From IMG/VR virus record IMGVR_UViG_3300045977_000216, positions 1-64,000 of that record: a stretch of 64,000 nt of DNA. One strand, given 5' to 3'. The notes below the pieces were generated by a model that was not told the DNA's origin, ran no database searches, and saw only the letters and a list, made by a program, of their open reading frames with translations. Numbering within the stretch: position 1 is the first letter of the stretch; the number at the start of each line of letters is the position of its first letter. The position numbers and the translations under genes were made by a program. Of the stretch, positions 52,877-58,370 are shown piece after piece. The stretch is from a virus.

Positions 52877-53112
52877 ATTACGTTCATGTCCCCTGGCACG
52901 GGAGGAGGAAACGTCCCGTTGGCCGTGAAGGTCTTGATCCATCGACCGCCGCTCCCGACGAGCTCCAAGGTCACGCCAGCTCCGTCGCACACTGTGAGCG
53001 AGACGGACGAGGCGTCGGGTCCAACCACCTCTGTCCGATCCGGCTTGCCGGACTCCCTCACGTGTAGCTGTCGGACCTCGGAGCTCTTCGGGAACGCCAC
53101 GATGAGGTTCAT
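52873..53112 (-). CDS. hypothetical protein, 79 aa
   Basis: Beta-rich, with GSGGRWIKTFTANGTF resembling a repeated virion beta hairpin. Its start overlaps the metalloprotease stop (ATGA) and its stop the next ATG. Probably structural. Confidence 0.6.
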   Translation of the reverse strand: MNLIVAFPKSSEVRQLHVRESGKPDRTEVVGPDASSVSLTVCDGAGVTLELVGSGGRWIKTFTANGTFPPPVPGDMNVI

Positions 53113-54302
53113 AGCAGCTTCAGAATGAGCGGGAGAATCTGACCCAGGATCTCGACGAGCTTCGACCAGTCGATGGTCGCCGAGGCCTGCTGGAAGCTGA
53201 TGCTCTCGCCGCCTTCTCCGATGAGGACGTTGAGGAGGTCCCTGACCCCGATCATGATCGTGCGAGCGTCCCCGCCGCGGAGTGACGCGACGAGCTTCGT
53301 CACGGCACCGATGATTCCTCCGATCCCAGGAGCCGCCGAGGCGTCCTGGGAAGGCATCAGGGCCTCAAGCTGATCTGCGTACGCTGCGAACTGGTTCATG
53401 TTTTCCTCTCCTAGCTTGATTGCTGTCCAGCCCTCTGGAAGTCGGACGCGAAGCATCTTTTCCTTCAGGCTGAGTTTTAGAACGACGTCCTTCGGTGGTG
53501 GATCTGGCGGTGGGGGAGGTGGTGGTGGGGGCGGGGGAACCACCTGTCTTGGATAGAGCTCCCCCGCCGCCTTCCGGTCCATCTGCGAGAAGTCCTTGCC
53601 ACCCAGGATAGGCTCACCGTCCTTGGTGATGCTGCCAGGGAGGCTGTAGGTCATAATCGAGATCTCGTCGGCGTGCTCGGAGCCCCTGAGGGCTGATTCT
53701 GAGAGCGGCGTGAGCACCTGCTGCTCGACCGTCATCGCCGACCACCCCTGCGTCTGCCTGAAGTAGGCGATGGCCTTGTCCCTGTCGATCTGTGCCACGA
53801 TCTCCGGCCGCATGTGCTCGTGCGGAAATCCCAAGGTGTGCCCTGCCTCGTGGCGGATGACCCTGCGGCATTCAGACTCGGGGGTCTTCATCGTGAACCC
53901 CTGGAGGCACATGGTCGCTCGCGACCGCTGTATGTGCAGGATGTCGGTTCCGAGGTACGACCAGTATCCGTCGCCGGACCGAGTGATGCGAACCTGCGGG
54001 TCCACGTTGGACAGGCGAAACTCAACGTTGCAGAACTCCCCCCAGGAGTTCATGTGCGAGAGAATCATACGCTGCAGGTCCGCCGGAGTCTCCTCCATGA
54101 AGCCCACCGTGAGCTTCACGCCCTTGTTCGGCCAGTACTTGGTCACCAAGACCGCCAAGTGGCCGGGATCGAGGACGATTCCAGCAGCCGGAAGACCCTC
54201 GACGTTGGGGCGGTTGGAGGGATTGATGTCGATGGCCGTCTGTGCGGCCACCACCATCTCCTCTTTGCTCAGGGAGACCGGCCTGCAGGCTATGAAGCTC
54301 AT
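53109..54302 (-). CDS. astacin-like zinc metalloprotease with poly-proline linker, 397 aa
   Basis: HEAGHTLGFPHEH is a full HExxHxxGxxHE metzincin zinc site and SIMTYS the Met-turn, with a catalytic domain of about residues 40-240. A run of eleven prolines near residue 262 links it to a C-terminal domain that ends in a hydrophobic helix (LGQILPLILKLL). No signal peptide is seen, so it may act in the virion or after lysis. Similar M12A-type proteins occur in some bacteria; a phage copy in the virion operon is unusual. Confidence 0.85.
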   Translation of the reverse strand: MSFIACRPVSLSKEEMVVAAQTAIDINPSNRPNVEGLPAAGIVLDPGHLAVLVTKYWPNKGVKLTVGFMEETPADLQRMILSHMNSWGEFCNVEFRLSNVDPQVRITRSGDGYWSYLGTDILHIQRSRATMCLQGFTMKTPESECRRVIRHEAGHTLGFPHEHMRPEIVAQIDRDKAIAYFRQTQGWSAMTVEQQVLTPLSESALRGSEHADEISIMTYSLPGSITKDGEPILGGKDFSQMDRKAAGELYPRQVVPPPPPPPPPPPDPPPKDVVLKLSLKEKMLRVRLPEGWTAIKLGEENMNQFAAYADQLEALMPSQDASAAPGIGGIIGAVTKLVASLRGGDARTIMIGVRDLLNVLIGEGGESISFQQASATIDWSKLVEILGQILPLILKLL

Positions 54303-54376: not shown

Positions 54377-54622
54377 TCAGTGTACGAACCGAATCACCCG
54401 AGGACGACGATCAACCTCGATCCTGAGGAACGGATCGAAGAACGGGTCCCGAATGAACACCCGCTCGACCCTGCGGGGCGGCAAGTAGTCGTAGGTGCTG
54501 TAGTAGTATCCCAGGCTCTGGCTGGGGCACCCATTGACAAACTGCACGCGACCACGGCCGTGGGCCTCGGCGTCACTCGCGAGAGCGAGGACCAGGAACA
54601 TTGCAATCAGCAAGACACGCAT
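54377..54622 (-). CDS. small exported protein, 81 aa
   Basis: Clear signal peptide MRVLLIAMFLVLALASDAEA, then a short mature part with SYYYSTYDYLPP-like tyrosines and basic strands. Mature protein about 61 aa. Function unknown; co-expressed with the haem proteins. Confidence 0.65.
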   Translation of the reverse strand: MRVLLIAMFLVLALASDAEAHGRGRVQFVNGCPSQSLGYYYSTYDYLPPRRVERVFIRDPFFDPFLRIEVDRRPRVIRFVH

Positions 54623-54635
54623 TGTGCACCTCCCT

Positions 54636-54944
54636 TCAAGGTTTCTTCTGCCTGGTCTTGACGAGCAGCAGCTCCTCTGTTCCGACCCCTACTACGATCC
54701 CGACCAAGCTGACCCTCTGACCGATCTTCTTCCTCACCTCCGCCTCCAGCTTCTTCGCCTCTGCCGCGTCTTGGAACACGAGCCTCGTATTCCCAACGTA
54801 CAGCTGAATAGACTTCAGGCCAGCGGCATCGTGGTGCGTCCTCTCAGACACGAGGCCAACGACCTCGTCAGTCTTTGAGAACACCAGACTCTTCGGCTCC
54901 TCCGCCACCAGCAGAATCAATCCGATCCAGCAAGCGCTGCCCAC
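54636..54944 (-). CDS. possible exported protein, 102 aa
   Basis: GTG at 54944 follows AGGAG by nine bases. Short hydrophobic N-terminus (WIGLILLVA) then two beta/alpha segments. Starts 28 bases inside the cytochrome-like gene. Unknown function. Confidence 0.55.
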   Translation of the reverse strand: MGSACWIGLILLVAEEPKSLVFSKTDEVVGLVSERTHHDAAGLKSIQLYVGNTRLVFQDAAEAKKLEAEVRKKIGQRVSLVGIVVGVGTEELLLVKTRQKKP

Positions 54945-55984
54945 AGGTTGTACTCCTTCGGAGTGATCTTGCGACCGGGCCCACCCTCTGGGTTCCTCGG
55001 CATACGCTTGTCGAGGTCGTGGGTGATGAGTCGCTCCAAGACAATCTCCTTCGTGATTCCGACCTTGTCCCTGTCACCCGTCGCCGGAAGGGCGGGGTAG
55101 GTCGTCCACTCGAAGTTACCCTTCGGCTCTTCGCCGGAGTGGCACGACGAGCACTCCTTCTTGGCGTGGGCCTCCCAGAGCTTCCCGACGTTCGGTACGT
55201 CGACCCTCTCCACCTTCATTCTCCCGTCCGCTCCAGTCGAGGCCCTGTAGCTGTACTCACGCTGCTCAATGCGAGCACGATCTGGCTCCCTGAGCATTTC
55301 CCGTAGAATGTCGCCCTTCGCCCTGATCTCAGCGATCTTGGCCGCACCGTCGTTAAGAGCACGGACGTTATCTTGATAGTTTTGATTCGCGTTCCCCTCC
55401 AAACGCTGCACGCCCTCGACCAAGCGACCAGCCTGTTGGAGGGCTACGTTGAGGTCTACGCTGGAGTACAGGTCCGCGATGGTCGACCGCTCGTAGCCGT
55501 ACACGGTGTTCCCCTGAACGCCGGCTGCGGAGAGGCGGAACCTCAGCGGAGAGGCGTAGGGAACGTGCGACCCGTAGCCCTCCCAACGGAAGTTGTCCTG
55601 GAGCCCCAGGACCTGGATGGTCTCTACAAACTCAGCCTGCTGGAGGGCCTCGAGCTGCTTCTGGGCCTCCACACGGTCGCGATAAGCAACGAGGTCGAGG
55701 ACCTTCTCACGCCACAGCGGGTCTCGGTAGCTCGGGAGAGCGGGCTTGACCTCAGCAACCGGCACATACGCATACCGATACCTCTCCCTAGTGTAGCACC
55801 GGCCGCAGTAGTAGTACGGCTCGGTGTAGTAGGTCTTGGTCGCGGTGTAGAACTGGCCGTCCTTGTACCACCGACCCTTCGTCCACACGTAACTATCCAC
55901 GTTGACGAAGCCCTCGGGGTACGAGTCGCTCGCGAGAGCCGCCACCGGAGCTGCCATGAGAACCAGGAGAATCACAAACCTCAC
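54917..55984 (-). CDS. exported c-type cytochrome-like protein, 355 aa
   Basis: Signal peptide MRFVILLVLMAAPVAALA. Near residue 283 KKECSSCHSGEEPKG gives a CxxCH haem-c motif, with a methionine about 44 residues later (DKRMPRN) as possible sixth ligand. The middle is helical, the front aromatic-rich. Expected in the periplasm of the host with covalently attached haem. Resembles the short cytochrome domain common in Planctomycetota. Very unusual for a phage. Confidence 0.75.
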   Translation of the reverse strand: MRFVILLVLMAAPVAALASDSYPEGFVNVDSYVWTKGRWYKDGQFYTATKTYYTEPYYYCGRCYTRERYRYAYVPVAEVKPALPSYRDPLWREKVLDLVAYRDRVEAQKQLEALQQAEFVETIQVLGLQDNFRWEGYGSHVPYASPLRFRLSAAGVQGNTVYGYERSTIADLYSSVDLNVALQQAGRLVEGVQRLEGNANQNYQDNVRALNDGAAKIAEIRAKGDILREMLREPDRARIEQREYSYRASTGADGRMKVERVDVPNVGKLWEAHAKKECSSCHSGEEPKGNFEWTTYPALPATGDRDKVGITKEIVLERLITHDLDKRMPRNPEGGPGRKITPKEYNLWAALAGSD

Positions 55985-57756
55985 TTGACACCTCCTATCA
56001 GCGTCGCCTGCGAGCGACGAGCCGCGAAGGCCGTCACCAGCGACCAGTCCACCCTGTTGATCTCAAGACCACTTTTCAGAGCCGCGATCCTAACGTCCTC
56101 CGGCACGATGACCCCGTTGACCGGAACTGGCGGCAGCAAAATCCTCAGGTGCTCGACGGCCTGCTCCCGCTGCTTCCTCCTGGCCTCGTCACCGTCCTTG
56201 ATCGCGGAATCAAGAGGGACGTCGAAGCCGAGCTCCCTGAGGGCTTCGACGGGCCCGACCGTGCGGTAGAAGTAGGAGTCCCAATCGGACGCCACCCTCT
56301 GAGACGCTAGGACGACTACATCGGTCTGATCCGGCGAGACCTTCCAGGTGCCGGTCGCCCTCAGGACGGCAGCCGCGTAGGAGTTCCGGAGTGGCTCTAG
56401 GGCCTCCTCCGGCTCGCCGCCGTACCAGCCACGTATCCTGTCCCTGGCGTCCTTCTTAACCAGGTCCCCGAAAACCCCGACGTCCCTCGCGAGCAGAATC
56501 TTGACGTCGTTGACTAGTGGCTTCCAGCCATCCCTGTCCGGCCCGTGGCACCTAATGCACGCCACGGCTCCCTGGAGCGTGTTCGTGTACGGCTCGGGAA
56601 TCCGGTGGTCGACGGCCACGTTCTGCGGGACGAACTCCTGCAGGGTCCCGCGACCATTGAACAGTGCGTACCCGAGCATTCCATTCGCCCGAGTGAAGAT
56701 GACCTCCCTGGCGAAGTCTACGAACTCCACCAGGTTCATGATCGCGTGCTGCCCGACGTCTATGTCCTCGTCGGACACGTCGTGCGTCACGAAGCACCAG
56801 CCGAGCAGCGTCCTGAAGTAGTCGACCCGCCTCGGCTTTCCCGTGACCAGACTACGGAAGATCCCGACCCTGCCGTCGCCCCTGATCCTGTCGAAGATGT
56901 CGGCGGCGGTGACGCCGGCTGCAATATTCCCGACCCCGAGGCTCTCGAAGAGCAGGTCCTCGTCCGATCCCTTCTGACCCGCCCTCCGGATGCCGGCGAA
57001 CTCATAGTAGAGCCCGCCGAAGATCGTCCTGAATGCTCCCTTCCCCTTGATCGTGGAGAGCATCCTGGCGAAGAGGTACTGGTGGGAGACTATCGGGGCC
57101 AGGGACTTCGTGGCTTCCCTCAACTTCGGGAAGTGCGGAACGTGCTCCGCGTCGAACCTCACCACATCCTTCCCGAGCTCGGAGACCGGTACCTCCACCT
57201 CCCTGACGGTCTCCTCGGAGTACGTCTCCTCGACGTCCCGCACCGCGAACTGGTTCCCTCCCAGGGCCACCCTCTGCTTAACCGTCCGCTTCTTCTGCGT
57301 GGTCTCGACGACCTTCTTCTTGACCTTCGGCAGGTCAAGATCGAGGAGAGGAATGAGGTCCTTGGTCACGAGCAGCGAGAAGTCAGGATCAAATTGCAGC
57401 TCGTCCCAGAGCTCGAGCCACTCCTTAAGGTCGGCTAGGACGGGAGCGAAGTCCTTCAGGTTGACCCTGACCAGGACCGCATCTCCCCTACCCACGGCCC
57501 TCGGTTGCACGATCACGGAGGACCGGCTCGTGGTGTTCAGCACGAAGGCCACGGCCTGGTACGACGCCTGGCTCCCGTTCTTCACCCACACGTACCGAGT
57601 GAACGCTCGCTCCTCAGGAGCTACGCTCTCAAGGTCCTCCGCCGCGAGCTCCGCCGCCACGGCCGGAACGGTCACGGGCTTCGGCTTGACCGGTGCCTGC
57701 GGCGTGCCGGTGGTCGCGAGAGCTAAGATCAAAAACAGCGGTGCCAGGTGCTTCAT
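55981..57756 (-). CDS. exported protein with a CxxCH haem motif, 591 aa
   Basis: N-terminal signal peptide (MKHLAPLFLILALATTGTPQ), a long beta/alpha body, and GAVACIRCHGPDRDGW (CxxCH, about residue 402). First gene of the virion-direction operon. ATG at 57756 is placed right after the T6 of a hairpin; an in-frame GTG at 57768 lies in the hairpin. No clear ribosome-binding site. Probably a monohaem periplasmic protein; role unknown. Confidence 0.75.
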   Translation of the reverse strand: MKHLAPLFLILALATTGTPQAPVKPKPVTVPAVAAELAAEDLESVAPEERAFTRYVWVKNGSQASYQAVAFVLNTTSRSSVIVQPRAVGRGDAVLVRVNLKDFAPVLADLKEWLELWDELQFDPDFSLLVTKDLIPLLDLDLPKVKKKVVETTQKKRTVKQRVALGGNQFAVRDVEETYSEETVREVEVPVSELGKDVVRFDAEHVPHFPKLREATKSLAPIVSHQYLFARMLSTIKGKGAFRTIFGGLYYEFAGIRRAGQKGSDEDLLFESLGVGNIAAGVTAADIFDRIRGDGRVGIFRSLVTGKPRRVDYFRTLLGWCFVTHDVSDEDIDVGQHAIMNLVEFVDFAREVIFTRANGMLGYALFNGRGTLQEFVPQNVAVDHRIPEPYTNTLQGAVACIRCHGPDRDGWKPLVNDVKILLARDVGVFGDLVKKDARDRIRGWYGGEPEEALEPLRNSYAAAVLRATGTWKVSPDQTDVVVLASQRVASDWDSYFYRTVGPVEALRELGFDVPLDSAIKDGDEARRKQREQAVEHLRILLPPVPVNGVIVPEDVRIAALKSGLEINRVDWSLVTAFAARRSQATLIGGVK

Positions 57757-58238: not shown

Positions 58239-58370
58239 ATGAGGGAAAGATGCCAGACAGGCAGTCTGGCTCCCGCGACCTACTGCGGTGAACGACCGAG
58301 GCACTGTACGTGCGTGCACCTACTTGCACCCGTCAGGTCTCCAGGACCACCGGCAGGTCGCGGGCTGTGA
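58239..58370 (+). CDS. doubtful 43-aa frame at the transcript start
   Basis: The ATG coincides with the predicted transcription start, so translation would have to be leaderless. The product is cysteine- and proline-rich with no motif. The DNA here forms a GCCAGAC/GTCTGGC hairpin, so this may be untranslated leader instead. Confidence 0.25.
   Translation: MRERCQTGSLAPATYCGERPRHCTCVHLLAPVRSPGPPAGRGL

Follow-up and report, generated by a model that had tools for sequence, protein, structure and literature searches.

Phage-borne, split members of an unnamed bacterial family of c-type haem proteins

Introduction

Among the relatives of the proteins reported here are bacterial cytochrome c domains such as PSCyt1 (PF07635), and the literature assigns no function to the PSCyt domains (PMC5615132). 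One bacterial protein in which such a domain precedes a second, unnamed haem domain is listed in RefSeq simply as "c-type cytochrome". A literature search returned no report of phage-encoded relatives, which does not prove that there is none, and exported c-type haem proteins are to our knowledge almost unknown among phages. Here we compare with these bacterial proteins two adjacent phage genes, P0002 and P0001, that are best described as split, phage-borne representatives of a bacterial family of haem proteins that has no name yet.

Results

The phage and its gene pair

The window, that is the whole stretch of DNA analysed, comprises the first 64 kb of IMG/VR record IMGVR_UViG_3300045977_000216 (69,637 b). 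A direct terminal repeat of 126 bp (positions 7-132 and 69512-69637 of the record) indicates that the record is circular, probably complete, and free of host (bacterial) flanks. Downstream of the pair on the minus strand are genes for TerL (GpA_ATPase, 6e-32), portal (phrog_145, 1e-37), major head protein (phrog_283, 1e-49) and tape measure (phrog_991, 8e-30), and the record also encodes a family A DNA polymerase, helicases, a primase and a B12-type ribonucleotide reductase. The window phage is present in more than one record, as its major head protein is matched at 100% identity by the one encoded on a 7.5-kb IMG/VR contig of a different dataset (L147).

The original prediction described two exported-looking phage proteins with one CxxCH each, and we confirmed both open reading frames on the minus strand. 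P0002 (55981-57768; 595 aa) is exported-looking and comprises an unnamed haem-c core domain, with its haem-attachment motif, CIRCH, at residues 404-408 (56545-56559, minus strand, by direct translation); the gene end at 57756 given earlier corresponds to an internal ATG, which would yield 591 aa. P0001 (54917-55984, minus strand; 355 aa), likewise exported-looking, has a C-terminal class I-type cytochrome c domain with a CSSCH haem-attachment motif at residues 278-282 (55139-55153, minus strand, by direct translation) and, by alignment, a candidate distal haem ligand in Met328 of an RMP motif (55001-55003, minus strand). The two frames are intact and overlap by 4 bp, and their N-termini resemble Sec signals by eye (MRFVILLVLMAAPVAALA followed by SD, and MKHLAPLFLILALATTGTPQA). 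These are the only two CxxCH-containing products among open reading frames of at least 60 aa in the 64 kb, and shuffling of residues gave a chance probability for the motif of 0.0006 in P0001 and 0/5000 shuffles in P0002.

Rightward genes start at 58288, and P0002 and P0001 lie on the minus strand ahead of the virion genes. This layout fits the earlier claim that the pair comes first in its transcript, for which no leftward promoter was identified. Short near-repeats of TTGGAGCA(A/G)GATGC occur upstream of P0002 (57804-57985 of the window), between the divergent gene blocks, and are a possible regulatory site. Two possible operon members follow the pair on the minus strand, a 102-aa open reading frame overlapping the end of P0001 (54636-54944; without notable Pfam match) and an 81-aa small protein with an N-terminus that is signal-like by eye (54377-54622). 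Beyond them is a possible functional partner, an astacin-type metallopeptidase of 397 aa (53109-54302, minus strand; PF01400, E = 5.5e-6, above cut-off) in which the zinc-binding HEAGHTLGFPH (HExxHxxGxxH) and Met-turn SIMTY motifs are intact. The same peptidase has a run of prolines as well as a hydrophobic ILGQILPLILKLL tail, the latter reminiscent in appearance of a Leu/Ile-rich protein found beside a papain-like protease in huge phages.

The cytochrome c domain of P0001

Searches of PHROGs and NCBIfam gave nothing usable for P0001 or P0002. P0001 matches PSCyt1 at 16.7 bits (E = 0.012), short of the Pfam cut-off of 22 bits, and is ranked best of 477 open reading frames by a bacterial cytochrome c profile (E = 0.006). 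In alignments its CSSCH coincides with the CxxCH of the cytochrome c domains of huge phages and bacteria, and its RMP with an MP that is invariant among the bacterial fusion proteins. In the comparison with cytochrome c families and Planctomycetota proteins proposed with the original prediction, PSCyt1 stayed below its cut-off and a planctomycete homologue was found (E = 7e-13). The latter, an exported protein of 267 aa, shares the middle domain of P0001 and has CVRCH..SMP at its end; it is present in one genome among 392 Planctomycetota, and a core gene was not found beside it. In a Planctomycetota genome (L161, 5864-9866), a P0001-like cytochrome gene lies two genes from an ATPase resembling LmuB/PtuA-type defence ATPases (PADLOC, E = 3e-22).

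The core domain of P0002

A profile built solely from huge-phage proteins matches P0002 over the core domain (E = 2.8e-18), and C404, C407 and H408 fall in columns that are invariant in a 60-row alignment. P0002 keeps 25 of the columns conserved at 90% or more in bacteria (n = 57), the CxxCH among them, as compared with 32-39 in the huge-phage copies. At the likely active site several polar residues have been lost and, judging by this alignment, the function of P0002 may have changed relative to the bacterial core. A cytochrome c domain is absent from the P0002 chain, and the next gene, P0001, supplies this partner.

The core domain, although widespread in bacteria, has no sequence match in Pfam, NCBIfam or PDB. 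AF2 modelled a bacterial fusion protein confidently (pLDDT 91, pTM 0.86) and P0002 less so (pLDDT 78, pTM 0.78), and Foldseek found no relative of either model in PDB or BFVD. As Foldseek missed even the small cytochrome c domain, this null result is weak evidence for a new fold. A single-sequence search with P0002 of 294 Planctomycetota genomes yielded one match, which reflects divergence rather than absence.

Relatives in huge phages

Phage haem-c proteins had been described as rare, and a tblastn search of 50,697 deposited phage genomes bears this out, with a match to P0002 in one genome, LR756511.1 (595 kb), and to P0001 in none. LR756511.1 encodes a CIVCH protein of 611 aa and, in the gene directly after it, a CAQCH..RMPP protein of 243 aa. 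IMG/VR scans for close relatives of P0001 and P0002, and a first genome scan, found nothing. Further IMG/VR scans used peptide patterns lying outside the CxxCH, so that conservation of the motif was not built in, and brought the tally to seven distinct huge-phage contigs, the 595-kb LR756511 included (L003, L004/L005, L016, L017, L020, L021 and L022), in each of which the two genes keep their order and their CxxCH motifs. Four of these contigs encode, ahead of the pair, a papain-like protease and a leucine-rich protein. A further core gene, standing alone, occurs in LR756511 and in one IMG/VR phage beside a gene whose LR756511 product weakly resembles a C39 peptidase. The paired core genes of huge phages are under purifying selection (dN/dS 0.10 and 0.08). 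One huge phage encodes the planctomycete domain TIGR03000, above cut-off, which suggests, from sequence, Planctomycetota as hosts.

We did not find the core in relatives of the window phage identified by TerL or major head protein, most of which are fragments and two of which measure 64-69 kb; the pair is thus accessory within that group. Phylogenetic inference separates the phage cores by one branch from all bacterial cores (support 91), with P0002 on a very long branch (3.7) of unsure placement.

A bacterial family of fused two-haem proteins

Bacterial members were collected by a DNA pattern scan that required the core CxxCH and returned 115 stretches, 109 of which are matched by the huge-phage-only profile. 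Of 114 distinct sequences, 94 have a second CxxCH in the same chain, placed 330-420 residues upstream of the first; the total takes in the phage sequences, which do not have it. The upstream domain is recognised as PSCyt1 or Cytochrome_CBB3 and is related by profile to FoxE, c6 and CcoP. Conservation of the CxxCH was left uncounted within the pattern-scan set and checked instead on bacterial copies found by profile or tblastn, of which ten of ten keep both kinds of haem site, seven of the ten being independent of the motif scan. The nine phage homologues, made up of seven paired cores and two second-locus cores, all keep the motif. The original prediction had staked itself on the cysteines being conserved, and across these 9 phage and 10 bacterial homologues they are.

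Alphaproteobacterial versions have two further haem motifs ahead of the core, and an operon in Neorhizobium encodes a caspase, an OmpA protein, a ferredoxin-reductase-family protein and a multihaem core protein. A protein of Singulisphaera acidiphila (L083, 2281-5418) has a Ser/Thr kinase domain in front of the two-haem module, a fusion that hints at redox signalling.

Caspases and other proteases

Genes for exported-type caspases, counted with a profile of Pfam-confirmed caspases, occur near the core at 17 of 109 bacterial loci (fetched flanks of 8 kb or less), related loci each being counted separately. By phylum these are 11 of 30 Pseudomonadota loci, 5 of 24 Planctomycetota loci and 1 of 5 Verrucomicrobiota loci, with none among 42 Poribacteria loci. 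The background density of about 1.2 caspases per Mb (72 in ~58 Mb) predicts roughly one across all 109 loci and, having been measured in genomes chosen for showing the linkage, is if anything too high. OmpA proteins are often encoded nearby as well. The largest neighbour cluster obtained by single linkage was dropped from the counting because it mixed several families.

A caspase gene was not found near the phage haem genes, where papain-like, C39-like or astacin proteases are encoded. PADLOC models did not match P0001, P0002 or P0003 from the huge-phage pair, and among the loci they matched only the neighbouring bacterial caspases. A planctomycete contig (C51 of G009, 46662-145720) has at least three core genes and nine caspase-domain genes in ~100 kb and looks like an island of the caspase/two-haem system.

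Discussion

A fusion in one lineage that corresponds to adjacent genes in another is standard evidence for joint function, and on this basis we infer from the bacterial fusion and the adjacent phage genes that the two parts work together. That the core exchanges electrons is suggested by its class I cytochrome c partner, by the extra haem motifs of the Alphaproteobacterial versions and by the ferredoxin-reductase-family gene in Neorhizobium. We see roughly an even chance that P0001 and P0002 make up a two-part, envelope-exported c-type haem redox system, a split form of the bacterial fusion. In favour are also the constant gene order in the seven huge-phage contigs, the retention of CxxCH in copies not selected by that motif and the low dN/dS of the huge-phage cores. 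Against it stand the marginal cytochrome c score of P0001, the strong divergence of P0002, the null result of the structure search and the planctomycete P0001 homologue that has no neighbouring core gene. P0001 would be a class I-type cytochrome c with one haem, probably His/Met ligated, and P0002 would carry a second haem in its large unnamed domain, the host cytochrome c maturation machinery attaching both haems after Sec export. P0001 would then shuttle electrons between the haem of P0002 and a carrier in the host periplasm, and P0002 may perform the chemistry (reductase- or peroxidase-like) or sense redox state. That the pair lies ahead of the virion genes suggests that it is expressed late in infection. 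The most likely role of P0001 is electron exchange with the P0002 haem at the host envelope in late infection, with haem loading, electron flow, substrate and reaction, timing and the benefit to the phage all predicted rather than observed. The effect on host respiration raised in the original prediction becomes just one among several redox possibilities.

The motifs might instead bind no haem and represent a metal site or a relic in otherwise ordinary exported phage proteins. The weak match of P0001 to cytochrome c profiles is compatible with this, but neither the two cysteines nor the histidine vary among the phage and bacterial relatives, the domains fused in bacteria match class I cytochromes of solved structure and P0001 keeps the methionine of its RMP, which makes such a reading quite improbable. 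We hold it to be distinctly unlikely, too, that the pair is structural, packaged in the virion or anchored in the envelope with haems serving stability or host contact only. The genes lie directly ahead of the virion genes, and apart from this position nothing points to the virion association that had been proposed; the proteins lack a PHROG match, relatives that share its head protein with the window phage do not have the pair, and Sec-type signals are unusual among tailed-phage virion proteins. The absence of the pair from those relatives would also be expected of recently captured host genes with no role in the phage. Set against such passive carriage, which we consider highly improbable, are the deeply diverged phage-specific branch, the split organisation common to the huge phages, purifying selection in those phages and the intact, overlapping frames in the window.

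The caspase linkage leads to an explanation of another kind, namely that the split phage copy acts as a decoy or antagonist disrupting a bacterial envelope surveillance or cell-death system, in which the fused two-haem protein would work alongside exported caspases, OmpA-family proteins and FGE-sulfatase/WD40 proteins. The excess of caspase genes at bacterial loci is in keeping with this, as is the occurrence of other proteases near the haem genes of phages that have no caspase there. The Poribacteria loci have no caspase, however, the haem proteins have no PADLOC match and an anti-phage role of the bacterial system is conjecture; moreover, the haem sites are under selection in the phage copies, whereas a simple decoy need not keep them. 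We therefore regard antagonism as unlikely. Similarly doubtful is the broader proposal that phages, probably of Planctomycetota, carry a split version of an unrecognised bacterial two-haem and protease envelope system, its protease being an exported caspase in bacteria and of papain-like, C39-like or astacin type in phages, and that they use it to block redox-triggered proteolysis or cell death or to bring it under their control. Redox activity of the pair remains our main reading, with interference in a caspase-linked envelope system as its rival.

Phages unrelated to one another, with genomes from about 70 kb up to 595 kb, share this two-gene unit, which is under selection where this is measurable and suggests that redox chemistry at the envelope of the host is, in some phages, run by proteins of their own. 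The unit also brings to light a large bacterial family of haem proteins, so far unnamed, that has neither a database model nor a solved relative and that adjoins caspase genes far more often than caspase density predicts. Recognition of the two proteins as halves of one bacterial architecture, their recurrence in huge phages and the link to exported caspases extend the original prediction.

Like PSCyt1 and other class I cytochromes c, P0001 has a CxxCH, a later MP with a candidate methionine ligand and a C-terminal helix, but it differs from them in its long N-terminal and middle regions and its sub-cut-off score. The window pair shares with that of LR756511 and its IMG/VR relatives the order of a large CxxCH protein followed by a smaller CxxCH..RMP protein, both exported-looking, with about 26-30% identity between P0002 and P0003. 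In the huge phages, unlike the window, the pair sits within a conserved run of exported proteins; a short exported protein likewise follows it, comparable in position to the 81-aa protein of the window. With the bacterial fusion family the phage pair has in common a homologous core, an invariant CxxCH and two kinds of haem domain. The bacterial proteins unite these domains in one chain, often with added kinase, WD40, LRR or DUF4384 domains and often with caspases as neighbours, whereas the phages encode them as two genes.
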